Shown in pieces: positions 2-31,126 of a stretch of DNA of 64,000 bases. The DNA is from Salibaculum griseiflavum (lineage in GTDB: Bacteria > Pseudomonadota > Alphaproteobacteria > Rhodobacterales > Rhodobacteraceae). Position 1 is the first letter of the stretch, and each line of letters starts with the position of its first letter. The position numbers and the translations under genes were made by a program. A model generated the notes under the pieces. The model saw nothing but the letters and a program-made list of their open reading frames with translations. It made no database searches and was not told the origin of the DNA. Location: the NCBI RefSeq assembly GCF_003129565.1, contig NZ_QETF01000003.1, positions 186,001 through 250,000 of the forward strand, in the 5' to 3' direction.

Positions 2-2311
2 AGCGCGCTTGCTGCCCCAGAGGTCGCAGAGAAGGTTCTGGCGTCAATCAAACCCTTGTTCCGCCCCGGTGACGTGGTGCAGCTCACTGCTTTGGATCCC
101 GAAGACGGGCCGCCACACATCCTTTGCGCGGACCCGTTCACTGAGGTGGGTCATGGGGAGCTGATCGCGTTCATTCAGGCGCATAACGGCCGCCGCAATC
201 TGTATTTCGGCGTCAACCCGCGCTCCAGCGAACTGGCGGGGACGAACCAGGCAGCTCAGGCAAAGGATGTCGTGCGCCGCCGGTCAGCCTTTGTGGACAT
301 TGATATGAAGGACGCTCCCGACAGCGACGTAGACTGGACCCGGACGCGTGCGGAATTGGAAAATCTGGGCCCGATCCTCTTTGTAGAGACTGGCAACGGG
401 TTTCATGTTCATTACGCTGTAGAAGAAGTCGCCGGTGAAGTCCTTGAGGCATCCGTTGCGCCGCTGGCGGGCGCAATGGCAGCGCTGGGGTCAGACAACG
501 TCTCTGACCTGCCCCGCATTGCCCGCCTGCCCTACACGGTGAACCTGCCCACTAAGAGCAAACGCGCTCGTGGCGCTATCCCCATTTTGGCGCGTCCTGT
601 GCAGCAAAGCGAGCCTTTGTCCAATGCACCACATTCGGTTGTCGAGATTTCAGATGCCCTCAGGGACGTGGCACATCGCCTTGCCCTGCCCGGCCGGAAG
701 TCAGGTGGCGCGGCCGGGGTAGACCGGACAGGAACAAAGATCGGGTGGGCCGCACCGAGCGCGGACCTCTTGCGCCTGGCGATGCAGGAAATGCCCAACG
801 ACGGCCCTTTTGATGACCGTGGCGACTGGTGCTCTCTCGCCTATGCCGTGAAGGGCGCTGCTAGGGTCGGAGAAATGGAGGCTGAAGGTCGGGAGATCTG
901 GCTGGAATGGTGCGACAAGTGGATCGGCGCTGTTGACCCAGCTGCGGACGAGAAAATGTGGGATAGTATCAAGCAGCCGTCTACGGGCTGGGGAACGCTG
1001 ATGGGCATGCTTGAACAGCACAACCCGGCGGGACGGAAACGTGTCAAAGAAGCGGAGGCCAAAAGCGCTTTTCCGCCCATCCCCTCCGCCTTCCAATTGC
1101 AGCCCATCCAGCCCTTCCAGATTTCGAACCTTCCTCCAAGGCGGTGGCTCTACGGCAGGGCCTACTTCGCAGGAAATGTTTCGGTTCTGGTCGCACCTGG
1201 CGGAACGGGTAAGTCTGCGCTTGCTATGACAGAGGCTGTCGCGATGGCTTCCGGAAAGACCCTCATTGGTGGTGACACGCCACACCATGCTTTGCGCGTA
1301 TGGTATCACAACGCGGAGGACGACAAGAACGAGCAGTTGCGGCGTGTCGCAGCCACGATGGAGCATCATGGCATCACCCATTTGGACCTCGGCAGGCGGC
1401 TTATTCTGACCTCAGGGCGGGATTTACCCCTGAAGCTCGCAAGCGACGGCCGCGACGGGATCACGATTAACCAGGAGGCTTTAGAATCCCTGATAGCGGA
1501 GGTGGAAAAGGTCGGGATCGAGGTGCTGATCCTTGATCCGCTCGGTGCCATGCACACGCTGCCTGAAAATTCGAACGAAGCCGCAAATCTGCTAATGGGG
1601 GCGCTTCGCGAGATCGCAGAGCGGACTGGAGTGGCGATCTGTCTTGTTCACCATGCAAGCAAGGCTGCCGCTAGGGACATGGATGCCGCAGGCGCTGGCG
1701 CAGCACGTGGCGCCTCCGCGCTTGTTGATGGCGCGCGCGTAGTGCGCCAGCTACGCCCTGCTACGGTGAATGACGCCAAAACGCTAGGTATCCCCACCGG
1801 CGAGCGCAGGTTCTATATCCGGGTCGACAACGGAAAGGCTAACCTCGCCCCGATTGACGACGCGCGGTGGTTGCACTTGGCTTCCGTCAATCTCCGGAAT
1901 GGCACCCAAGACTATCCGAAGGGCGACGATGTCCAAACCGTCGAACGGTGGGTTCCCCCGAGTCCGCGTGGCAACGTCACCCACCAGGAGGCTCTCCAGA
2001 TCCACAATGCTGTTGCAGCGGCACCGGCGACGCAGCGCCGCGCAAGGGCGGCAGCGCAAGGCTGGATTGGGTACTTGATCGCAGAAGAACTGGGGCTGGA
2101 ACTCGGGCTGCATGGCATCAAAGTTGAGCAGCGCGAGGCTGATCACATCCAAAATCGCCGCGAGGTGTCCGCCGTGATCGACAAGGGATTGCAGGAAGGG
2201 TGGCTGTGCGAGACCAAAGAAAAGGGACCTGACCGCAAAGACGCCCCGCACATCGCGGCGGGGGAGGATCCGGTCCCGGGCGACGTGCTGGACGCAGCCG
2301 ACGATGAATAG
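2..2311 (+). CDS. Primase-helicase (RepB/PrimPol-type primase plus AAA ATPase), 5' partial
   Basis: Replication protein of plasmid, phage or island type. From the TTG at 56 it reads 751 residues, but the same frame is open without a stop to base 2 of the window, and the upstream residues look like ordinary protein, so the true start probably lies outside. Residues about 75-200 resemble a RepB/PrimPol primase core (acidic FVDID, later SDLPRIARLP). Residues 250-330 look like a PriCT-type linker (DRGDWCSLAYAVKG). An AAA_25/RepA-like ATPase follows, with Walker A APGGTGKS (Lys386 counted from the TTG), Walker B LILDPLGAM near 494 and a LVHHASKA motif. The family normally primes and unwinds DNA for mobile elements. 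The C-terminus is unassigned. The architecture is clear, but the parent element cannot be named. Confidence 0.85.
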   Translation, partial: SALAAPEVAEKVLASIKPLFRPGDVVQLTALDPEDGPPHILCADPFTEVGHGELIAFIQAHNGRRNLYFGVNPRSSELAGTNQAAQAKDVVRRRSAFVDIDMKDAPDSDVDWTRTRAELENLGPILFVETGNGFHVHYAVEEVAGEVLEASVAPLAGAMAALGSDNVSDLPRIARLPYTVNLPTKSKRARGAIPILARPVQQSEPLSNAPHSVVEISDALRDVAHRLALPGRKSGGAAGVDRTGTKIGWAAPSADLLRLAMQEMPNDGPFDDRGDWCSLAYAVKGAARVGEMEAEGREIWLEWCDKWIGAVDPAADEKMWDSIKQPSTGWGTLMGMLEQHNPAGRKRVKEAEAKSAFPPIPSAFQLQPIQPFQISNLPPRRWLYGRAYFAGNVSVLVAPGGTGKSALAMTEAVAMASGKTLIGGDTPHHALRVWYHNAEDDKNEQLRRVAATMEHHGITHLDLGRRLILTSGRDLPLKLASDGRDGITINQEALESLIAEVEKVGIEVLILDPLGAMHTLPENSNEAANLLMGALREIAERTGVAICLVHHASKAAARDMDAAGAGAARGASALVDGARVVRQLRPATVNDAKTLGIPTGERRFYIRVDNGKANLAPIDDARWLHLASVNLRNGTQDYPKGDDVQTVERWVPPSPRGNVTHQEALQIHNAVAAAPATQRRARAAAQGWIGYLIAEELGLELGLHGIKVEQREADHIQNRREVSAVIDKGLQEGWLCETKEKGPDRKDAPHIAAGEDPVPGDVLDAADDE

Positions 2312-2387: not shown

Positions 2388-2430
2388 ACTCCCGCAAAAC
2401 TCCCGCAAAACTCCCGCGCGGTCCCGCACG
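2388..2430 (+). repeat. Phased TCCCGC repeats, left cluster
   Basis: TCCCGC begins at 2390, 2401, 2412 and 2422, so spacing is 11, 11 and 10 bp, about one helical turn. The first two units are identical (ACTCCCGCAAA); the third and fourth diverge after TCCCGC. Such phasing is typical of protein-binding repeats such as iterons. The repeats lie just downstream of a replication-type gene. Confidence 0.6.
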
Positions 2431-2615
2431 CAGGCAACAGGGGAAGGGAGGTCCTACGGACCCCGCGCGCTCAAAGCGCGGGGGGTGCGGGACCACCGTT
2501 ACCTATTAGGCGGCAGCTCCCGCACCGCAGAAGAATAATCGGGTTTTGAAGAACACCATACCCCCCTGCCCGGACATTAGAATTCTTTCCGCGATGTCAC
2601 CGGGTGCAGACAAGA

Positions 2616-2637
2616 AGTCCCGCAAGACTCCCGCACC
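2616..2637 (+). repeat. Phased TCCCGCA repeats, right cluster
   Basis: Two more copies, with TCCCGCA at 2618 and 2629 (11 bp spacing), about 200 bp from the left cluster and partly at the stop of the gene on the minus strand. They carry the same core as the left cluster. Confidence 0.55.
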
Positions 2638-2639
2638 AT

Positions 2640-3350
2640 TCAACGGGGGCTGAACCGTCCGACGACCTCAAGCCAGCGACCCTGAGCTGCGCGATCAGCA
2701 GGTTGCCGAACAACATCCCGAAGGGCACGCAACAGGGCAACCTGATCCCCGGACGTGCGGCAGCGTTCCATCATCGGCGCGACAGTCTCCCGGCAGCTTC
2801 GGTAAACTGCCATCAAATCCGCCATCTCATCCACGTCTGCCGTCCGCGTCCGCGGCCGCCCCGGACGAAGATACCCCTTCCCTCGGGCCTTGGGGGGAGC
2901 CTTAGGCCTATCCGGCTGCTGTCGCTTGGAAAAGGCTGTCCCGGCGTGATCGCCCGGCGTCCATAGGCAGCCCCCCGCCGGGCCTCCACCTGGAACCTCC
3001 ATCTCTAACTTGTGTGACGCTGGGGGCGGTCCAGCATTCTTCACACGGAGGGGCAAATCGTGGCTCAGCACCCTTTCCCAACGCGCGACGTCCGTTCTGT
3101 CGACTTGGAGCCGGCGGAACCTCCACCTTAGCCAGTCGGCAATGGCCGGAGCGAGCCCCCGCAGGTCGTCAGGGACACCCCGTGCTATGAGGTCCGCCCG
3201 CAAGCTCTCCTCGTGCTCCTGCAGGTCTATCGTGGTGCCCGGCAACCATGGATTCTTGCGCCATGCGCGGGACAGCCTGTTGGCCGCACGGCGCGCCTCC
3301 GAGCGACTCCACTCCTCGGGGCTGACCCGTCCTGTCTCCAGCCCCTTCAA
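2640..3350 (-). CDS. Hypothetical protein, island or phage type
   Basis: A 236-residue protein of unknown function. Its ATG overlaps the stop of the upstream HGG-type gene by four bases (ATGA), so the two are probably co-translated. It is rich in Arg, Trp and Glu, with no signal peptide or membrane segment. It has two helical regions (about 10-105 and 165-236) joined by a Pro/Gly/Arg-rich linker, which suggests a basic nucleic-acid-associated protein. The coupling and the neighbouring replication gene support a real gene. Function is not assignable; a packaging or DNA-binding accessory role is only a guess. Confidence 0.6.
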   Translation of the reverse strand: MKGLETGRVSPEEWSRSEARRAANRLSRAWRKNPWLPGTTIDLQEHEESLRADLIARGVPDDLRGLAPAIADWLRWRFRRLQVDRTDVARWERVLSHDLPLRVKNAGPPPASHKLEMEVPGGGPAGGCLWTPGDHAGTAFSKRQQPDRPKAPPKARGKGYLRPGRPRTRTADVDEMADLMAVYRSCRETVAPMMERCRTSGDQVALLRALRDVVRQPADRAAQGRWLEVVGRFSPR

Positions 3351-3568: not shown

Positions 3569-3738
3569 CTCGTTGGCAGGCAGACCTTACATGGCTTGTT
3601 ATAACATAACACATTAGCTTTGCCACTGGTTCGTCGACAGTAGAAGCAAGATCGTTACGGCCATGACAGGCGGTCGAGACTTTTCTTTTCTGAGGGCGTG
3701 GGGGCCAACGCTTTGGCTGCCCCCCCTTTCTGTTTGTC
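3569..3738. other. Intergenic, imperfect hairpin
   Basis: Short gap between the autotransporter stop and the HGG-protein start. An imperfect hairpin at 3701-3723 (GGGGCCAA paired with TTGGC..CCCC) lies just after the autotransporter stop and may aid termination, but it lacks a clear U-run on the minus strand. Confidence 0.3.
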
Positions 3739-6700
3739 TTAGAACTGATGTTCGATCTTGAACTGGACGCCTGTGCGGGTCGTGTCGCCCACCCGGTCGA
3801 CGCTGAAGATGGTGTTCAGCCTGCTCAGGCCATCTTCGGAGTTCGAGGTAAAGCCCAGCTCGAGGCCCCCGCCGCACTCCTCGGTGGTCTGATCGGCAAC
3901 CGTGCGCTCGCAGATCAGCCGTGGGGAGAGGGTCGCGGTCTCGAGGCTCGTGGCGATAGGACGACCGTCCATTGGGACCCGCAGCTGCGGCGTGAGCGTC
4001 AGCGTTGTCAGGCTCACATGCCCGGCATCAAGGCTCAGCTCGTCGGTCAGCTCATAGGCATCCGCCGTGAAATTCATCTCCCCGATCTCGGTATAACCAT
4101 GCGTGAAGGCCAACTCAGGCCAGATCTCATAGCGCTCGCGCGCGATCACACCGGTCACAGACCCGCCAAGCATCAGCGTCCGCGTCGTGTAGTCGCTCTG
4201 CAGATCAAGCGTGCCATTGCTCAGCTCAAGATCGTTCATGCCAAGCCCCACCGAGGCAAACCCACTGGCGAACACCGTCTCTGAGAGCGCCACGACCCCG
4301 TAGCCGCCCAGATTGACACCGAAGCTGTCCTGTGTGCCTTCAAAGCTGCCCTCAAGCGTGGCCGTGCTCAGGTCAGCCCCGACATAATAGCCCAGCATAC
4401 GGTCCGCATCGAGCATATGTTCCCACGCCATCTTGCCCGAGAGCGTGCCGGATGTGTTGCCATCCTCGTCGCGCTGGATATCAAAGTCCCCGAAGAACAG
4501 GCGCCGCTGCGTCCCCGCATAGTTGCCATCCTGCTCAAAGAACGTCCCCTCGGCCACAAAGCTCTGCCCACGCAGCTCCGCCCGGCCGTCGATATCGAAG
4601 CCGATCTTGTTGCGTGACGCCAGCCCCGAACCACTCTCAGGATTGTTCATCTGCCGGCGGCTGAGCATGAACCGGTCCCGGGCCTCACGGACCAGTCGCA
4701 CATTGGCAGCCACCTGGCTGCGCAACGTCTTTTGCGCCTGCGTCGTCACGATGTCCCGGATTTCTTCACGATGCGCCTCAAACTCCGAAGCCGGAGAACC
4801 CGCAAGGATCGAGTAGGTGTTCGAGGCCACGTTATTGTTGCCAGCCACATCTTGCGCCGAGGCGGCTGGGACCTGTGCCGTGACGGTTTTGCCCAACTCA
4901 GGAGAGATGGTCAGCGTGTAAACCGCACCGCTGCCCTTCAGGTTGGATGCCTGCGCATTGGCCACAGTCACATCTCCAACGGCCAACCCCGTCACCTCTT
5001 CCGAGAAGGTCAGCGTAATCGTGAAGTCCTCGACGACAACATCGGTCGGCCCTTCGACCGTCACCGTCGGTTTGGTCGTATCGGGATTGTTCGGATCGGT
5101 ACCATTGGTCAGCTCTGTTGCGTCATCAAGCCCATCGCCGTCACTATCCGTGACCAGCGGGTTGGTGCCCGCCGCACGCTCCTCGGCATCGGTCACACCG
5201 TCACCATCGCTGTCAGGATCGTTTGGATCCGTCCCGGCCGCGGTCTCCGTGCCGTCACCAACCCCGTCTCCGTCGGTGTCGGTGTCCTCGCGCGGATTGA
5301 ACGGAAAGGCATCTTCATTGTCGCCCACGCCGTCACCGTCGCTGTCATGGCTCTCGCCCGGGTCGTTCGGGAAGACGTCCTCACTGTCCGGTACGCCGTC
5401 ACCGTCGCTGTCCGTTTTCGTTGGATCAGTGCCATTGGCGCGCTCGTCGCCGTCCGGCACACCATCGCCGTCGCTATCCACGCCGCCATCGCTGGCCCCG
5501 GCATCGTTGGGATAGTCGTCATAGGCATCGTCTACACCGTCCCCGTCGCTATCCCGCGCCATGGGATCCGTACCCGCCGCCACTTCGGCCCCGTCGGAGA
5601 TCCCGTCATTGTCGCTGTCAGGATCATTGGGATCCGTGCCAAGCTCCTTCTCGCGCTTGTCGCTCAGACCATCGCCGTCGGTATCTGCACTCGCCGGGTC
5701 CGTGCCGTTGTCGCGCTCTTCATTGTCGCCCATGCCATCGCCGTCCGTATCCGCGTCCTCGCTCGGGTCATTCGGGAAGGCGTCCTCGCCGTCCGGCACG
5801 CCATCGCCGTCGCTATCGCCTGAGGTCGGGTCGGAGCCCGCGTCCTTCTCATCACCATCAGAGACGCCATCACCGTCACTGTCGGGATCGTTGGGGTTCG
5901 TCCCGTCAGCGACTTCCTGGCTGTCGCCAACACCGTCACCGTCGCTATCGGTGTCATCATTCGGATTGTTTGGGAGCGCATCCTCACCGTCCGGCACACC
6001 GTCCCCGTCACTGTCGGAGTTGCCTGGATCAGTGCCGGCATCAATCTCGGTGCCGTCCGGGATACCGTCGCCGTCGCTGTCAGGATTGCCCGGATCCGTG
6101 CCAGCCGCGCGTTCCTCGGCGTCAGTCAGCCCGTCACCGTCGCTATCAGGGTCGTCTGTCTTGGTGCCAACAAACCCTTCTTCACGGTCGCCGATCCCGT
6201 CACCATCGGTATCGGTATCTTCCGACGGGTCCCGCGGGAAGGCGTCTTCACCGTCCGGCGTACCGTCCCCGTCGCTGTCCGAATTGCCCGGGTCCGTGCC
6301 CGCGTCCCGCTCGTCGCCGTCCGAGACCCCGTCGCCGTCGCTGTCGGGGTTCTCCGGGTCCGTGCCGTCAGCAATCTCGTCGGCATCGCTCACGCCGTCG
6401 CCGTCGCTGTCCTTGCCGCCCGAGGGATCATTGGGCAGGTCGTCCTCGCCGTCCGGCACGCCGTCGCCGTCGCTGTCGCCGTTCGTGGGATCAGAGCCCT
6501 CTTCAACCTCACGGCCATCCGGGATGCCGTCCCCGTCACTGTCAGGGTCGTTGGGGTCCGTGCCGCGGTCCTTCTCTTCCTTGTCACTCAGACCGTCGCC
6601 GTCACTGTCTTCGCTCGTCGGGCTGGTACCGTCCTTGCCTTCCTGATTGTCACCAACTCCATCACCGTCGCTGTCGGTGTCCTCGTTCGGGTCATTCGGG

Positions 6701-9700
6701 AAGGCGTCTTCCGCATCCGCCGTACCATCCCCGTCCGTGTCACGCCGGGCCGCAACCGAGAAGGAGGTCGCGGCAATGTTGTCGTTCGGGACCGGTCTGC
6801 CTTCGTTGTCAATGGCCTTGTCCGCGACCTTGCCCGCCGCCAGATCAAGCGTCACCACCCCATCGGCCACTGGCGTGACCTCGAAGGTCCAGACCTTGTC
6901 CGGCGTCTGTTCTTGCCGGTTGCCCAAGGCCGCGTTGCGCGTGCTCACCCGGACGTCCGACAACGTGAAGCCCGTCACCTCCTCGTTGAACGAGATCGTA
7001 GCCGTAAACGGTCCGACCTCCGGCTCGCCCGGCGTCGTCGGCGTGTAGCTGAAGCTCGGCACCGGCGCTTCCTCGTCTACCTCGAGTACGGTCACGCTCA
7101 CCATCTGCGAGGTTATGTTGCCCGTCACATTGCCCGCAGCGTCCACATCGCGCGCAAACACTTCCACCTGCCAAATGCCGTTGTCGTCGTGATCCCCCCG
7201 CGGCGCGTCAAAGTCCGGTGCCTCACCGCTCTTGAACGAGAGCTGACCCGAGACCGGGTCGATCTCAAAGTCGCTCTGGTCTGTTCCGCTGCCGGCAGCG
7301 CCGCTCATATCCGTTAGATACCAGCGCACCGTCTCGTCAGCCACAAAGCGCGCCACGCCAAGGGTGTTCTCTGACAGCTCCGCATTCGCCGTCGCCCCCG
7401 TTGTCGTGCCATTGCCCGCCGCATCCGGGCCCGTGATCACCGGCGCGGTATTGTCCAGCGTGTAGCCCGCCTCGTTGGGCGCAGGCATCGACGCCGTCTT
7501 CCACGGGTTGCCCTCAAGATCCACGATATCATTGCCCGCAGCAAAGCCCAGCGTGACCGTCCCGTCGAGACCCGCCAGATCGCCCCCGCTCGCCGTGATC
7601 CGCCAGGTGTTACCGCTCGTTTTGAAGGCCGAGGCGATCGTCGCACTTGTCCCCGCCAGAGTGAAGTCCGGCGTCGCGCCACCCACATTCCGAACGGGCT
7701 CCGAGAAGGTCACGTCCCAGACTAGCGTATCGGCCGCCGTCTTCATGTATGACGGAGCGACACGGGTCACGCTGATCGCCGCCGGGCGTACCGCCTCAAC
7801 CTGCACACCCGAAAGCGTACCGATCGACAACGCTGGCTCGAGGTCATTGCCGACGACGTCCTGAACGCTCGCCCCGTTCAGATCGATCGCATCTTCAACC
7901 TCGATGCCGTCAGGGTCGAGATCGTTGCCCTGTACGGCATAAGTGAAGACCAGCGTCTGGTCGCTGCTCTCGCCCGCCTTGTAATCCGCATACCTGGTCC
8001 CGCTTTGCATCGCGAAGGGAATGCGCGGCACCCCACCCGAGACCGTCACCGCTTCCGACATCGACAGCTGGAAGCGCAGCACACGCGAGGACGCAGACAA
8101 GCTGTAGGTCTGATCACTCGGCACGCTCGTCTGCGTCACCGCAGGCGGCGCGTTGTCCACCAGATAGTCCGGCTCGTCAGTTCCCGCCACCGTCGGCGTC
8201 GGCGCCAGCGCGTTGCCCGCGATATCCGTGATGTTGTGCCCCGAGAAGAAGGACAGCGTGATCGTATCCTCCAGATCCGCCAAATCGCCCCCCGAGGCCG
8301 TCACACGGTAGATATTGCCACCCTGATCCGCGACACTCAGCACAGCACTCGTGTTCGCCACGCGGAAGTCCGCCGCGTCCACATTCGCGACTGCCTCATC
8401 AAAGGCCACGTCCCAGCTCAGGCTGTCAGCATTGGTCGGGTTGGTGTCCACCCGCGTCACCGACGCCACGCCCGGCGCCGTCTCGTCAACCGTGATCTCA
8501 ACCGCGAACGCCGAGGTGGCCGTGTTGCCCGCCACATCCGTCTGGCTCACTTGCACGTTTGGAGAAGCGTAGGTTGCCTCGGCCAATGTGAAGCTCGTCC
8601 CGCTGCCCGGACTCCAAGTGCTGCCCTCGTCGGTGCTGTACTCCCAGCTCGCCACGTCCTCGGCCAGCGTCACCGATACCTCTCCATCGCGCGTGATCTG
8701 GTCACTGTCACTCGCGCCTGTATCGTTCTCCAGACCGAACAGAGGCAGCTCAACGCTCGTGTCGATCTCCAAAGACAGTGCCGACGAGGCCGGCGAGACG
8801 TTCCCCGCCGCGTCCGTCGCCGTCGCCGTGATCGCATGTGTCCCGTCCGGCAGAGCAAAGTCAGCGGTCACGCTCCAATTGCCAGAACCGTCCGCACTCG
8901 TCGTCCCGAGCAGTGTCGTCGAGACAAAAACCTCGACCGTCGCATCGGCCTCCGAAGTCCCGGCAAACTCCGGCTGTGTCTCATTTGTGATGTCGTCGGC
9001 ATCCGACACGCCGCTGTCAGACCCCACCAAAAGATCCGGCACAGACGGCGCAACAGGCGCCGTCGTGTCAACCTCCTGAGCAGGCGACGTGCCCGCCAGA
9101 CCGTCATGAAAGGGAAGGGCCTGCTGAATTGTCGAAGCACCAATGAGACTGGCGTCACCAAAATCAAGCGAATCCGCGATAACCGCAACACCGTCCGTAT
9201 CCGTATCGCCGGGCTGAACAGTGTACTCGAAGCGCATCGTATCGCTACCGCCGGGGGCGTTGGACTGACCAGCAAAAGCCGCAGTCACCTGAGGTGGAGA
9301 TGCATTAGTGCCAAGCCCCAACTTGATGGACGGGCCGACCCCACCCCCACCGCTCCTGTTCAGCAACTCGGAAAACTGAAGATCTACAACAATCACAGAC
9401 CCCGCCTTGTAAGGGCCCGTCGAGGCAAAGCTCACATTTGTGACCACGGGAGCATCTACTGTCTTGAACACATAGTCAGACGCCGGAACCTCCGCGGTCG
9501 GGTTGCCGGCAGCGTCAACAAATGCGCCCTCCGGGATCTCGACAGAGTAGTTCGTGTTGATGTCGAAGTTGCTCACAGGGTCAATCTCGACAACCGTCGA
9601 GGCTCCGCTCCCGCTGATCGTTGCCTGGGCGACGTCAATAGACTCGAAGGACTGACCCGCATCTTCGTCTGTGATCTCGATGCTACCGGACCCAGCAACC

Positions 9701-11313
9701 ACACTCTCGTCAAAGAACAGAGTAATCACATCGCCCAACAGCGCATCGACTTCTCCATTGGCGGGATCCGCGTCCTCGGCTAAGGCCGGATCGATCGCAG
9801 GCGCAATGCCGTCAACCAGAATTCCAGAAGGGTCGTTGAAAGGCAGGGCAAAAACGTTCAAGTTATTGCCTTCGAGGTCCTCGATTATTCCCGAGTCCAA
9901 GTCCAGATCGGACGCAACGGTCAGGCCGTCTACGTCAAGATCACCGGCTTTGACCGTATACTCGAAAGTGAGCGTATCGCTGCCACCACCACTCACATAC
10001 TCGGCATACTCGGTGGTTGACCCGATGGTCAAAGGAATCCGGGGCGTTCCGACAACAGGGCCGATCTCTTCCGTGAAAACGACATCTAAACTAAGCGTGT
10101 CACCAAGCTTGTAATACCCATCTGTAGGGAGAGAGACAGAAGCCATCTCAGGCCGTGTAACGTCAGGAACCGAAAATTGCTGCGAAAGCGAGACTGTTTC
10201 AACATCATAGTCACCGCTCCCTTTAAGTGCCTGGTCTTTCACATCGATTGTATATGTCGTATCTTCATAAACACATTCGTGCGGCAATGTTACCGTAAGG
10301 TCCTTGCCACTGACGCTTGCGGCACTTGCGGCAGTCCCGTCAATTGACGTCTGAAAAGGAAAGCAGCTGCTGAGGTCCTCAGCACCGCCAGTGAAGTCGA
10401 TTATGATTGCGTCTACGTCCGATGCAGTCGATCCAGTAACCAGATTGACATCATAGGTCAGCGAAATGGCCAGGTCCGTGTCAAGATCAACCTGGGCGCT
10501 GACATCCTGACTGCCATTGGTGATATCAATGCCGGACTGTGCAAAAGACTGCGCTTCGAAGGTTGGGCTGTAGGAATAGTACAGCACACCACTTGCCCGT
10601 GCTGAGAAGTCGACTTTACTCGAAAACGAATTAGATATACATTGACTGTTCGTACCTCTATCGTCGACCCGAATATTGACGCGAGTTGCGTTGTCATATA
10701 CGAAGGTCGCTACAGGATCTGAGTATGTGCTGTAATTGAAGCCAGCGCAATTGGGAACACTTAGGGAATTATCGTCATATCCATAATTTGTAAAACTGTC
10801 AGAGCTATAGCCAGAGATTAGCGGATAGCTGCCTATCCAATCCAGATCACGAACGAGGCTAGTATTTTCGGACTTTTCTGAGTTGACAGAAACTCTACCC
10901 GAAGAAAAACACTGCGTGGATCCGTCATTCAGTTGCCCGCATACAGTCGAGTTTGCAGTATAGTAGCCTCGGTAGCCTATGAAGATATTGTTCCCTTCAC
11001 CGTAGCGATTTGAGTTGATAGTCAGGATTCCGGCGTCGCGGTCTTTTGCCATGACCTTTGCAACATCAATGAACCACCCGTGATACTGGTATCCAGTAGA
11101 ACTGTAGATTGTGCCGCTCTCGATAAAGGAATCATAGTTTCCCGCGACTTCACCCACAGCTTTGGTTGAAGTCGCAAAAAACAAGCCTGTCGCCAGGATG
11201 AACAGTAGTGCTGTGCAGGCTCGAGCGCCTGACAAACAGCTATGAGCTGTCCTTGCCAGCATGGTTTTGTCCAGCCGAGCGCACAAACAGACACATTTGA
11301 AAGATTTCACCAT
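3739..11313 (-). CDS. Giant autotransporter with Ig-like domains and about 25 thrombospondin type-3 repeats
   Basis: Surface adhesin-type protein of about 2524 residues. I start it at 11313 because AGGGG lies about 7 bases upstream; the frame extends to 11427 without a good ribosome site. An N-terminal hydrophobic stretch ([13 protein letters not shown]) is a signal peptide with a long n-region. Then come a unique domain, several Ig-like/cadherin-like repeats with SEP, SEE or DEAV..VD motifs, and residues roughly 1520-2075 made of about 25 D[ST]DGDG calcium-binding repeats (DNA about 5090-6755). One more Ig-like domain, a helical linker and a C-terminal beta-barrel ending in Phe (IEHQF) complete it. 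The barrel predicts type V export to the outer membrane, with calcium stiffening the stalk. The divergent wHTH gene at 11511 may regulate it. The target surface is unknown. Confidence 0.88.
5090..6755 (-). repeat. Thrombospondin type-3 (DSDGDG) coding repeat array
   Basis: About 25 tandem units encoding D[ST]D[GN]DG followed by loops such as GTDPN or EDAFPNDP. The nucleotide units are similar enough to give long spurious open frames on the opposite strand. The array is prone to expansion and contraction by recombination and to assembly error. Confidence 0.85.
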
Positions 11314-11510
11314 TCCGACCCCTGCCAATGCGCGTTTTTCCTTGCCGGGAGGTGTGCCAAGAGTTCGGAGCGGGCGCCAGATGGGCGGTTTGGCCATGGC
11401 CAGGATGGGCATATCTTTAGTGTGCATTGGCTTAGGTGACCGAGGCCACTACCTATGACCGGCAGGATCACTGCGCCCCACCTCGCCCTTCATCACCCGG
11501 GACCGTCACC
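11314..11510. promoter_or_regulatory. Divergent control region, autotransporter / wHTH regulator
   Basis: About 200 bp between the two chosen starts, pointing outward in both directions. It is the only place for both promoters if these starts are right. No convincing -35/-10 pair or strong dyad is seen by eye. Confidence 0.4.
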
Positions 11511-18620: not shown

Positions 18621-18710
18621 TGGCGGAGACGAAGGGATTCGAACCCTCGAGACGGTTTCCCGCCTACTCCCTTAGCAGGGGAGCGCCTTCGACCACTCGG
18701 CCACGTCTCC
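18621..18710 (-). tRNA. tRNA-Ser (anticodon GCU), CCA encoded
   Basis: A 90-base class II tRNA read on the minus strand. The acceptor stem GGAGACG pairs with CGTCTCC, followed by discriminator G and an encoded CCA. The T-loop is GGTTCGAATCC. The anticodon stem-loop CTCCCCTGCTAAGGGAG gives anticodon GCT, reading AGC/AGU serine codons. The long variable arm is present. Its 3' end faces the accessory region, the usual polarity of tRNA-integrated islands. Confidence 0.95.
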
Positions 18711-27959: not shown

Positions 27960-28424
27960 TCAGTCGTCATCCGGCTCATCGTCGTCATCCGGCTCATCAT
28001 CGTCATCATCGTCATCATCACTTTCATCGTCACTGTCATCGTCATCATCGTCATCGTCATCATCGTCATCGTCATCGTCATCATCGTCATCCCAATCGTC
28101 GTCGACTTCATCGTCATCGTCATCCCAATCGTCTTCGTATTCGTCCTCCGGGATGTAGATTCGGATACTGTCGCCTTCGTCATCATCCTCGAAAAGTTCG
28201 ACCCAGTAGTCGCGCAGTATCGCACCGGTGTTGGGATCGATCACAAGCTCGCGACGATACCGTTCGTTGGAGGCGACCACTCGCAAACGACCCAGCAATG
28301 TGCGCTGTATCGAAATCTCGACAAAACCCTGGGCCTGAAGCTGGGACAGGACCTGGTCTTCGACGCTTTGCGCAAAGGCCGGAGCAGCAGATAGGGCGAA
28401 GGTGATCAGGGCAGCTCGGATCAT
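27960..28424 (-). CDS. Secreted PepSY-like protein with poly-Asp tail
   Basis: A 154-residue protein. Signal peptide MIRAALITFALSAAPAFA precedes QS. Residues about 20-85 form a PepSY-like unit (LQAQGFVEISI, GRLRVVASNERYRRELVIDP, TGAILRD). From about 95 the chain is almost only Asp, with a few Glu, Trp, Val and Ser. The tail is extremely acidic and likely disordered, suited to Ca2+ or other cation binding in the periplasm or outside. It is a distant paralogue of the protein at 29195, and a 2OG oxygenase gene lies between them. Function is unknown. Confidence 0.85.
   Translation of the reverse strand: MIRAALITFALSAAPAFAQSVEDQVLSQLQAQGFVEISIQRTLLGRLRVVASNERYRRELVIDPNTGAILRDYWVELFEDDDEGDSIRIYIPEDEYEDDWDDDDDEVDDDWDDDDDDDDDDDDDDDDDDDSDDESDDDDDDDDEPDDDDEPDDD
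27963..28130 (-). repeat. GAC/GAT low-complexity coding tract
   Basis: Near-pure GAT/GAC codons encoding the poly-Asp tail. Such trinucleotide tracts can slip in replication, and every third-base choice varies, so selection appears to act on the protein rather than on the DNA. Confidence 0.75.
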
Positions 28425-28469
28425 GGAAGTCTCTTTAGCATGGGAACCCGGCAGGGGGCAGGGGCAAGG

Positions 28470-29090
28470 TCATGATTTGGCCTTTTTGAAGGTCGCGTTG
28501 AAGGCGATGGACCACCGTTCGTCGTCCGCCTCGTTGGGATAGACCCAATGCACAAGGTATGACGGGAACAGGATCATCTCACCCGGGCCGGGGCGCAGCT
28601 TCTTCTTCATCCGGAACGATGGTGCCTTGAGGATGCGCCAGTTGGGCAGGTCCGTCCGAGGGTCGATGAATTCGATCATCCCCGAATTGCCGGTCTCGAT
28701 CGCGGGCTGGGCAACGTAGTAGACCCCCGACCAGTGGGCACCGGGATGGGTATGGGGCGCATTGAAGCCCCCCTTGGGATTGGCGTTCATCCAGGCGAAC
28801 ATCTTGAGGGACAGCGCGCTTCTCGGAGTGCGTGCCCCGATCTTTTCATTGGCCTCGAAGACAGCTTCGGTCGCAAGATCGCGCAGCTTGGCAAAGCAGT
28901 CCGTCTCTTCGTCGAAGAGGTTCCCCTCGGAATGCCAGCCGCCCCGGTTGGATTTCGATGCTCCGGCAGACCCGGCGCGCATCCGGTTTCCTTCGGCCAG
29001 CAGCTCGGCATTGAACTCGGCGTGGTCGGGTACGCGGAACCGCAAAACCGGGGTCGAGAATAGCTTTTCGTTCTTGATCGTTTCGAGCAT
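28470..29090 (-). CDS. Putative 2OG-Fe(II) oxygenase (TIGR02466-like)
   Basis: A 206-residue protein resembling the TIGR02466 group. The N-terminus FSTPVLRFRVPDH is typical. The double-stranded beta-helix carries NAPHTHPGAHWSGVYYV (metal-site His candidates), GMIEFIDPR, then PGEMILFPSYLVHWVYPN with the distal His, and a C-terminal RWSIAFN. Family members are expected to hydroxylate an unknown substrate using 2-oxoglutarate, Fe(II) and oxygen. It lies between two secreted Asp/Glu-rich protein genes on the same strand (gaps of 104 and 45 bp). Modification of those proteins, or of a common metabolite, is inference. Confidence 0.82.
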   Translation of the reverse strand: MLETIKNEKLFSTPVLRFRVPDHAEFNAELLAEGNRMRAGSAGASKSNRGGWHSEGNLFDEETDCFAKLRDLATEAVFEANEKIGARTPRSALSLKMFAWMNANPKGGFNAPHTHPGAHWSGVYYVAQPAIETGNSGMIEFIDPRTDLPNWRILKAPSFRMKKKLRPGPGEMILFPSYLVHWVYPNEADDERWSIAFNATFKKAKS

Positions 29091-29194
29091 GTCTTCTGGC
29101 CTGGCATTCGAATTTCGAGAAATGACCGCCCCGCCGGTGCGGCACCGAGGGGCGGTCCAGATGATGAGCCGGTCGATCCGGTCAACAGGCGAGA

Positions 29195-29710
29195 TCAGTC
29201 CTCGTCGTCTTCGTCGTCGTCGGACTCGTCATCACCCTCGTCATCGTCTTCGTCGTCATCATCCTCGTCGTCGTCTTCGTCGTCATCATCCTCGTCGTCA
29301 TCATCCTCGTCATCATCTTCGTCGTCATCTTCATCATCATCTTCGTCGTCATCTTCCTCGTCGTCGTCTTCATCATCCATTTCATCATCGTCGAGGAAGT
29401 CTTCGTCATCCATTTCGAATTCGACACCGGTGCGGGACGCGTCGTCATCGTCGGCCGCTTCCGTCTCCTGCTTGAGCAGCATGGTCAAAGTCCCATCCTC
29501 AGGATTGTAAAGGTAGATCTCCTCGATCTTGACGCCGTCCTTGACCGCCTCGATCTTGATCTGGGTCGGCCCCTGCTTGATTTCGATGTAGTTGTAGCCC
29601 TCCGCCTGGAGCGCTTCGAGATATTGCTGCGCGGTCTGGCCGGTCTGGGCATGCAGCGGGCTGGTTGCAAGGGCAACAAGGGCGGTCGTGGTCAAGAGCG
29701 TCTTTCTCAT
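29195..29710 (-). CDS. Secreted PepSY-like protein with Asp/Glu-rich tail
   Basis: A 171-residue protein. Signal peptide MRKTLLTTTALVALATSPLHA precedes QT. A PepSY-like unit follows (YLEALQAEGYNYIEIKQG, KIEAVKDGVKIEEIYLYNPEDG). From about residue 85 there is a long D/E tail (repeating DDDED) to the C-terminus. GGAGACAG precedes the ATG. It is the first gene of the operon, with the oxygenase, the second acidic protein and the membrane LuxR-type regulator downstream. A cation buffer, mineral-binding or export-quality role is possible; none is demonstrated. Confidence 0.85.
   Translation of the reverse strand: MRKTLLTTTALVALATSPLHAQTGQTAQQYLEALQAEGYNYIEIKQGPTQIKIEAVKDGVKIEEIYLYNPEDGTLTMLLKQETEAADDDDASRTGVEFEMDDEDFLDDDEMDDEDDDEEDDDEDDDEDDDEDDDEDDDDEDDDDEDDDEDDDDEDDDEGDDESDDDEDDED
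29199..29400 (-). repeat. GAN (Asp/Glu) low-complexity coding tract
   Basis: Codons GAT, GAC, GAA and GAG in DDDED-like periodicity encode the acidic tail. The DNA is a mixed trinucleotide repeat, prone to length variation between strains. Confidence 0.75.
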
Positions 29711-29878: not shown

Positions 29879-31126
29879 TCAGTCCGCGTCGCGGCCTTCC
29901 TCGGTGTCTGACATGTCGAACCCGAGGTGCCGGGCCACGGTCTGCACATCCTTGTCGCCACGGCCACACATATTCATGATGATGATATGGTCGCGCGGCA
30001 GGTCCGGGGCGATCTTCATGACATGGGCCAAGGCATGGCTCGGCTCCAGCGCGGGGATGATACCCTCGGTCGCGCAGCAGAGCTGGAAGGCCTCCAGCGC
30101 CTCGGTATCGGTGATCGACACATATTCCGCACGGCCCGTATCATGCAGCCATGAATGCTCTGGCCCGATGCCCGGGTAATCCAGCCCTGCCGAGATCGAG
30201 AACCCTTCGAGGATCTGCCCATCGTCGTCCTGCAAAAGGTAAGTCCGGTTGCCATGCAACACGCCGGGGCGGCCACCGGTCAGGGACGCGCAATGCTCCA
30301 TCCGGTCATCGACACCCTTGCCGCCGGCCTCGACCCCGATGATCCGCACCTCCTTGTCGTCAAGGAACGGGTAGAACAGACCCATCGCGTTGGACCCACC
30401 ACCGATCGCTGCGATGATCGTATCGGGCAGGCGGCCCTCGGCCTTGTGCAGTTGTTCCTTGGCTTCCTTGCCGATGATCGACTGGAAGTCGCGCACCATG
30501 GCCGGATAGGGATGCGGGCCCGCCACGGTGCCGATGCAGTAGAACGTGTCGCGGACGTTGGTGACCCAATCACGCAACGCGTCGTTCATCGCATCCTTGA
30601 GGGTGCCACGACCGGACGTCACCGGAATCACCTCGGCGCCCAGCAAGCGCATGCGGAACACGTTGGGCGCCTGGCGGCGCACGTCATGGGCACCCATGTA
30701 GACGACGCACTGCAGGCCGAACTTGGCACAGACAGTGGCGGTGGCCACACCGTGCTGCCCGGCGCCGGTTTCGGCGATGATCCGGGTCTTGCCCATGCGC
30801 CGCGCCAGAAGGATCTGGCCCAGCACGTTATTCACCTTGTGCGCACCGGTATGGTTCAGCTCATCCCGCTTGAGATAGATCTTGGCCCCGCCCAGATGCT
30901 CGGTCAGGCGCTCGGCGAAATAGAGCGGGCTGGGGCGACCGACATAGTGGGTCCAAAGATCGTTCATCTCGTCCCAAAAGTTCTGGTCATCCTTGGCCTT
31001 TTCATACTCCGCCTGCAGATCAAGGATCAGAGGCATCAAGGTTTCGGACACGAACCGCCCACCGAAATCACCGAACCGGCCGTTCTCGTCCGGGCCGTTC
31101 ATGAAGGAGTTGAAGAGGTCGTTCAT
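29879..31126 (-). CDS. trpB: Tryptophan synthase beta chain
   Basis: A 415-residue PLP enzyme joining indole and serine. The ATG at 31126 is chosen for AGGGAG eight bases upstream and the family-like start [20 protein letters not shown]. The PLP lysine lies in [14 protein letters not shown]. The phosphate loop is GGGSNAMG. Other signatures are [14 protein letters not shown] and a C-terminal MCGRGDKD. It is the 3' gene in a same-strand series after trpF, from which it is separated by about 130 bp. Confidence 0.97.

Follow-up and report, generated by a model that had tools for sequence, protein, structure and literature searches.

The alpha protein of phage P4 consists of a primase, a helicase, and a winged-helix origin-binding domain, in that order. 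In PICIs, the origin is described as the region immediately 3' of rep, where two sets of iterons flank an A+T-rich stretch, and it was tested in plasmids (PMC6092414). SaPI Rep is reported to read repeats of this kind with its C-terminal domain (PMC7581432), and in PLE, per PMC8263062, the RepA DNA-binding domain and the origin swap as a module, with the origin as the target of a phage nuclease. An initiator has to fit its origin, and how such partners change is poorly understood. Here we analyzed a 64-kb stretch of DNA (G000:C23:186001-250000, hereafter the window), in which positions 2388-2635 are very probably the origin from which a small integrated mobile element replicates, with the C-terminal winged helix of a primase-helicase as the predicted binder of 9-bp iterons of the form [A/G][C/G]T-CCC-GCA.

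Clustered Repeats Downstream of a Primase-Helicase Gene

The window begins inside the primase-helicase gene, whose 3' part spans positions 1-2311 on the plus strand with its frame open upstream. The full protein is 841 aa long, with its ATG about 214 bp ahead of the window, and 769 aa are encoded inside it. A Pfam scan of the protein matched AAA_25 (E=3.9e-38) and PriCT_2 and found no Toprim primase domain. The repeats begin 77 bp past the stop codon. The original prediction had placed TCCCGC at 2390, 2401, 2412, 2422, 2518, 2618, and 2629, and all of these coordinates are right, as is the inverted TCCCGCA that it located at 2486-2492. In total, 2388-2635 holds seven copies of TCCCGCA and one of TCCCGCG (the copy at 2412). 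Taken as 9-mers, these copies begin at 2388, 2399, 2410, 2420, 2486 (inverted), 2516, 2616, and 2627 and are, in order, ACTCCCGCA, ACTCCCGCA, ACTCCCGCG, GGTCCCGCA, inverted GGTCCCGCA, GCTCCCGCA, AGTCCCGCA, and ACTCCCGCA.

These sites fall into an ordered layout. Iteron set A comprises the four direct copies on the plus strand at 2388-2428 (starting at 2388, 2399, 2410, and 2420) and is followed by a G+C-rich hairpin at approximately 2441-2503, which as DNA folds better than 200 of 200 shuffles (z = -5.5) and encloses the inverted copy GGTCCCGCA on the minus strand at 2486-2494. Next come the palindrome CCTATTAGG at 2502-2510, a lone direct copy at 2516-2524 (plus strand), a spacer at 2525-2615, and iteron set B, two direct copies on the plus strand at 2616-2635 (starting at 2616 and 2627). 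The steps of 11, 11, and 10 bp in set A and 11 bp in set B bear out the spacing originally described. The A+T fraction reaches 0.48-0.52 in 2511-2585 versus a window mean of 0.38, and the spacer contains CCCCCCTGCCCGG, which has close matches in all three nearest homologs.

Composition alone would be expected to yield TCCCGCA about 17 times per window, which is the argument for repetition by chance or from base composition in G+C-rich intergenic DNA. The window in fact holds 15 copies, and seven of the 15 lie inside these 250 bp, whereas the densest 250 bp in each of 60 dinucleotide shuffles of the window held one to three. When any 7-mer was allowed, 20 shuffles of the window never gave more than four copies in the densest stretch, and 2000 shuffles of 2312-2640 gave at most three copies of TCCCGCA. 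The original prediction had also raised the concern that the repeats might be common genome-wide. The close tandem ACTCCCGCA-ACTCCCGC proved confined to this locus in the 3.27-Mb genome (two places; control, none), while looser repeat pairs occur in three places at the locus and one elsewhere (control, six). With clustering above all shuffles and its recurrence with other words in homologs, chance is already refuted as an explanation, and we give it a negligible probability. In the unshuffled window, clustering of other 7-mers is equally dense only for triplet-like CGTCATC repeats at 27.9-29.3 kb; this dense run of CGTCATC/CGTCGTC at 27964-29260 is the strongest 7-mer clustering in the window.

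The Surrounding Element

The gene order of the element is integrase, alpA, primase-helicase, and then the repeats. The integrase gene (Pfam domains Arm-DNA-bind_3, Phage_int_M, and Phage_integrase; L005:3995-5245) and the gene of the AlpA regulator (L005:5350-5694) both lie upstream of the window start. Downstream of the repeats is a 236-aa frame on the minus strand (2640-3350), which has no Pfam or PHROG match and is conserved in related elements, with tblastn identities of 45% in L055 (G290) and 38% in L057 (G301); the integrase recurs in these same two elements. Beyond this frame lies the gene of a TSP3/Big-domain protein, which adjoins the element (3739-11427, minus strand) and encodes 2562 aa with 15 TSP3 repeats and bacterial Ig-like domains.

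A second, distant primase-helicase is present in the same genome (G000:C6:1935-2654; L074, L006) with its own downstream repeat, GGAGATGA, in four copies. Near it, C6:165-739 matches window positions 3702-4264 at 64%, and the TSP3-type gene may thus travel with such elements.

As a candidate attachment site, we considered a 14-nt direct match between the 3' end of tRNA-Ser(GCT) (window 18621-18634) and L004:17664-17677, about 320 bp ahead of the integrase ATG and with the tRNA end 21 kb off. This candidate was not accepted, as the match sits in a terminator-like hairpin. The genus comparison gave no empty site, and searches with the flanks in the genus gave scattered repeats only. A contig scan of genomes with the window protein (P0001) returned 22 pattern matches and no relative, and a viral contig scan with query A1 returned no matches.

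A Layout Shared by Homologs with Different Words

Protein matches were found in 62 of 394 genomes of the family; not counting the window's own, three of the matches are full-length, with identities of 48-52%. The original prediction proposed checking whether homologous genes carry similar repeats and took their absence as evidence against it. The same layout is present beside all three closest homologs, with the common order of word cluster, hairpin, lone copy, CCCC-TGCC-type motif, and second cluster after the stop codon, but clusters of the exact TCCCGCA are absent from all three. The words there are ACTGGCGCA (G290), ACTGTCGCA/ACTGGCGCA (G301), and AAGGTGCTGC (G355), and the locus records L011, L012, and L013 hold ACTGGCGCA, AAGGTGCTGC, and ACTGTCGCA/ACTGGCGCA, respectively. 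As the layout is kept with other words, a test based on the exact word would mislead.

We widened the search to more genomes, viral contigs, and plasmid and phage records. The first set comprised 131 loci, 127 of them with a stop codon and 125 with enough downstream DNA; 69 had a word (that of G355 was hand-assigned from two copies), and 53 remained after dropping those at least 90% identical. The second set started from 235 loci; an ORF was present at 234 of them, DNA at 233, and a word at 89. From these 89, 47 were removed as at least 90% identical to first-set proteins and 13 as redundant, leaving 29 to be tested. In the first set, the commonest downstream 8-mer was significant (p<=0.02) at 79 of 125 loci, compared with 1 of 125 inside the gene and 2 of 117 a further 1 kb away.

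The words fit one grammar, [A/G][C/G]T-NNN-GCA. Downstream, a single [CG]TNNNGCA word occurred three or more times in 68 of 125 first-set loci (control, 3/119; in-gene, 0/125) and in 89 of 233 second-set loci versus 4 of 225 controls. Pooled, this amounts to 157 of 358 downstream stretches versus 7 of 344 controls, where the 358 are locus records and not independent elements, as the two sets overlap in contigs. By this grammar the word is absent from 57 of the 125 loci in the first set and 144 of the 233 in the second, some of which have other repeats (e.g., L302), and in a viral clade (L210-L289, mostly from query A3, with an RDPVQRK-like wing) such words occur downstream in only 3 of 79.

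Across the family, inverted copies lie near 0-10 and 60-70 bp after the stop codon and direct copies near 20-50, 100-110, and 130-160 bp, and same-strand steps peak at 8-11 bp, against 10-11 bp in the window, where the arrangement resembles this template drawn out in length. Of 53 downstream stretches, 29 contain a CCCTAAAGGG-like palindrome, versus 4 of 53 controls. The 9-mer CCTATTAGG at 2502-2510 is possibly the counterpart of this palindrome, although the family search pattern had no match there and matched CCCTTGGG instead, 21 bp past the stop codon.

In the phage collection, one query of this class matched six records, and in the plasmid collection another matched 16; these are mostly partial, so the class looks little studied. 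A relative with ACTGGCGCA words like those of the alphaproteobacterial elements occurs in a Microcystis phage record (L080, OP028995.1), the host assignment of which may deserve a check.

A Predicted C-Terminal Winged-Helix Domain

The helicase domain resembles RSF1010 RepA both in profile comparison (E=1.7e-29 to 1g8y) and in structure comparison with VIA (Z 25.4, rmsd 3.0, 243 residues aligned). AlphaFold2 models, weak winged-helix matches, and the covariation reported below all point to a DNA-binding winged helix encoded at 1955-2308 (plus strand). In the model of the 769 aa (mean pLDDT 87), it is placed at the C-terminal end, with helices at 661-673, 689-697, and 713-732 and strands at 735-741 and 747-753, in the numbering of the window protein (P0001); modelled alone, the C-terminal domain has a pLDDT of 83. 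When this model was compared using VIA, the matches listed were mostly winged-helix proteins with Z up to 6.6. We rejected naming a winged-helix family from matches this weak. The P4 alpha and SaPI Rep domains are absent among the VIA matches listed, Foldseek with the same model returned nothing at E<=0.001, and Pfam searches of 23 C-terminal domains gave no family common to the members.

Two Residues Covary with Two Bases of the Word

Over the 53 dereplicated loci, we scored all 374 alignment columns for mutual information with each base of the word, against label shuffles. For base 2, which is C or G, column 684 stands out with z=22.5 (next column, 7.9): R or K accompanies C in 13 of 15 loci and Q accompanies G in 36 of 38. 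For base 6, column 746 has z=14.7 and the next, column 744, 6.8; here K or H goes with C (20/21), R with A (10/10), and N, M, E, or D with G (16/18). At bases N1 and N2, no column is prominent as these two are, the best for N2 being again 746 with z 6.7. Counted by single copies, R/K accompanies C 125 times and G 11 times, and Q accompanies C 4 times and G 267 times. In the window protein, the putative specificity positions are Ala684 and Lys746, both within the part encoded at 1955-2308; the model places 684 just ahead of helix 689-697 and 746 at the wing turn.

We recorded both rules before retrieving the 235 new loci and tested them on the 29 held-out loci. Base 2 was predicted correctly at 28 of the 28 loci covered, one residue falling outside the rule (shuffled-label mean 15.0, p 5e-5), and base 6 at 23 of 29 (shuffled-label mean 9.5, p 5e-5). 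Among the six misses, L300 and L298 look like cases of the aligner misplacing the wing, and L243 is possibly another; all were counted as misses. When each column was given its own look-up table, 684 and 746 ranked first of 388.

Related loci have words and residues in common, and controls cannot fully remove relatedness. The repeats could accordingly be sites for a host protein, or be kept for DNA structure, with the helicase covarying through common descent only. Several results speak against this. Two columns stand out of the 359-388 in the whole alignment, and both fall in the winged helix. Their signal also persists when nearest neighbors are contrasted in disjoint pairs: a change of base 2 in 14 pairs was matched by a change of residue class in 13, and an unchanged base came with an unchanged class in 25 of 27; base 6 changed in 24, the class along with it in 21, and stayed with an unchanged class in 14 of 17. 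By plain residue identity, the nearest-pair contrast ranks column 684 first of 369 and 746 only third. The proteins of G302 and L183, 93% identical in the helicase, differ in wing (GPIRKPVP vs. DAKRMERP) and word (GTGACGCA vs. GTGGGGCA) together, while the window protein and the phage protein L160, only 39% identical in the helicase and 28% in the C-terminal domain, have the same word and the same wing, GPDRK. Common descent alone is thus a very improbable explanation. Indirectly, the covariation and the held-out prediction together suggest that the adjacent primase-helicase itself very probably binds the repeats. From these sequence comparisons, residue 684 is predicted to set base 2 (R/K for C, Q for G) and wing residue 746 to set base 6 (K/H for C, R for A, N/M/E/D for G).

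The Ala at 684 of the window protein is outside the rule, and base 2 of its sites is mixed, with five C and three G. This mixture is what a loss of discrimination by Ala684 would predict, only four loci being without R, K, or Q at this position.

The Repeats as a Candidate Origin

Covariation speaks for binding and not for function, and iterons elsewhere act in copy control too, according to PMC3832669. The same protein might therefore bind the repeats for regulation only, as an operator or a copy-number sink. We consider this unlikely. The repeats lie past the gene and not at its promoter, with one stray 8-mer copy upstream in the element, inside alpA (L005:5561), which also tells against the autoregulatory operator that the original prediction offered as an alternative. 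A fusion of helicase and primase would suit an origin. Additionally, in pVL1_6, a 31.5-kb circular plasmid, such repeats follow the helicase gene, and the only replication genes annotated are a Toprim gene and this RepA helicase, although the PLSDB gene table is incomplete. The GC skew of pVL1_6 lends the origin reading no support, as it shows no turn at the plasmid's repeats and has its minimum at 30,861. Overall, the reading first proposed, origin-type iterons tied to the primase-helicase, is strongly supported by the homologs, by the covariation of initiator and repeats, and by the match to published PICI and SaPI origins.

At such an origin, the winged helix of the primase-helicase would dock on the 9-bp iterons, and the copies, about one helical turn apart and in two sets, would load helicase rings around the A+T-richer spacer, which the helicase domain would then open. 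The fused primase would make primers and start synthesis, with the hairpin as a possible priming site. The element presumably still excises.

A Probable Code of Origin Specificity

The layout is that of known PICI and SaPI origins, and the kind is thus already known. What appears new is a RepA-type initiator family with a fused, Pfam-less winged helix and a two-position residue-to-base code; we found no paper describing such a code in the open-licence PMC literature. We think it probable that origins of this class are widespread among phages, satellites, and plasmids, have received hardly any study, and are set by a readable code, in which single-residue swaps at two positions of the Pfam-less winged helix that ends the helicase reset the frame [A/G][C/G]T-NNN-GCA. 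In this way, elements would switch among compatibility groups that exclude one another, perhaps in response to competing elements or to nucleases that cut origins, and their origins would be predictable from protein sequence alone. The covariation of PLE RepA and origin shows that nucleases directed at origins can drive switches of this kind (PMC8263062). Nature offers many word switches here, some of them between nearly identical helicases whose wings and words differ, so that how partners change can be tested base by base. The code would also let origins be found, and replication systems that phages, satellites, and plasmids share or compete for be predicted, from sequence alone.

Comparison with Known Systems

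The element is similar to the pri-rep-ori arrangement of Gram-negative PICIs such as EcCICFT073, described in PMC6092414 as integrase, AlpA, primase-rep, and an origin immediately 3'. Here too sets A and B flank a spacer, 2525-2615, although its A+T fraction rises only to about 0.5. Unlike in those PICIs, the helicase here belongs to the RSF1010 RepA type and carries an unnamed winged helix. The likeness covers gene order and origin layout; PICIs are further recognized by helper-phage induction, packaging in phage particles, and a specific attachment site with defined element ends. As in the self-loading helicases SaPI Rep and SCCmec Cch2, a C-terminal domain would recognize short repeats directly downstream of the gene (PMC7581432). 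The helicase families differ, and the residue-to-base code is found only here, as far as PMC7581432 shows.

With the RepB'-RepA-RepC system and oriV of RSF1010 (IncQ), the element has the RepA-type hexameric helicase domain in common. In contrast, an N-terminal PriCT_2 primase, the helicase, and the covarying winged helix are joined here in one chain, where RSF1010 has separate proteins per PMC4234260, and the iterons here are 9 bp. Phage P4 alpha and its ori are alike in this respect, with primase, helicase, and winged-helix origin-binding domain in one chain, but the P4 primase is described as Toprim-type (PMC4234260) and the protein studied here has no Toprim match. Similar to PLE RepA and its iterons, the initiator's DNA-binding domain and the origin covary; as PMC8263062 presents it, PLE RepA differs in belonging to the RepA_N family without a helicase, with a few allele groups and no base-by-residue code. 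Finally, the phased short direct repeats beside the initiator gene are like those of iteron origins read by their own initiator.
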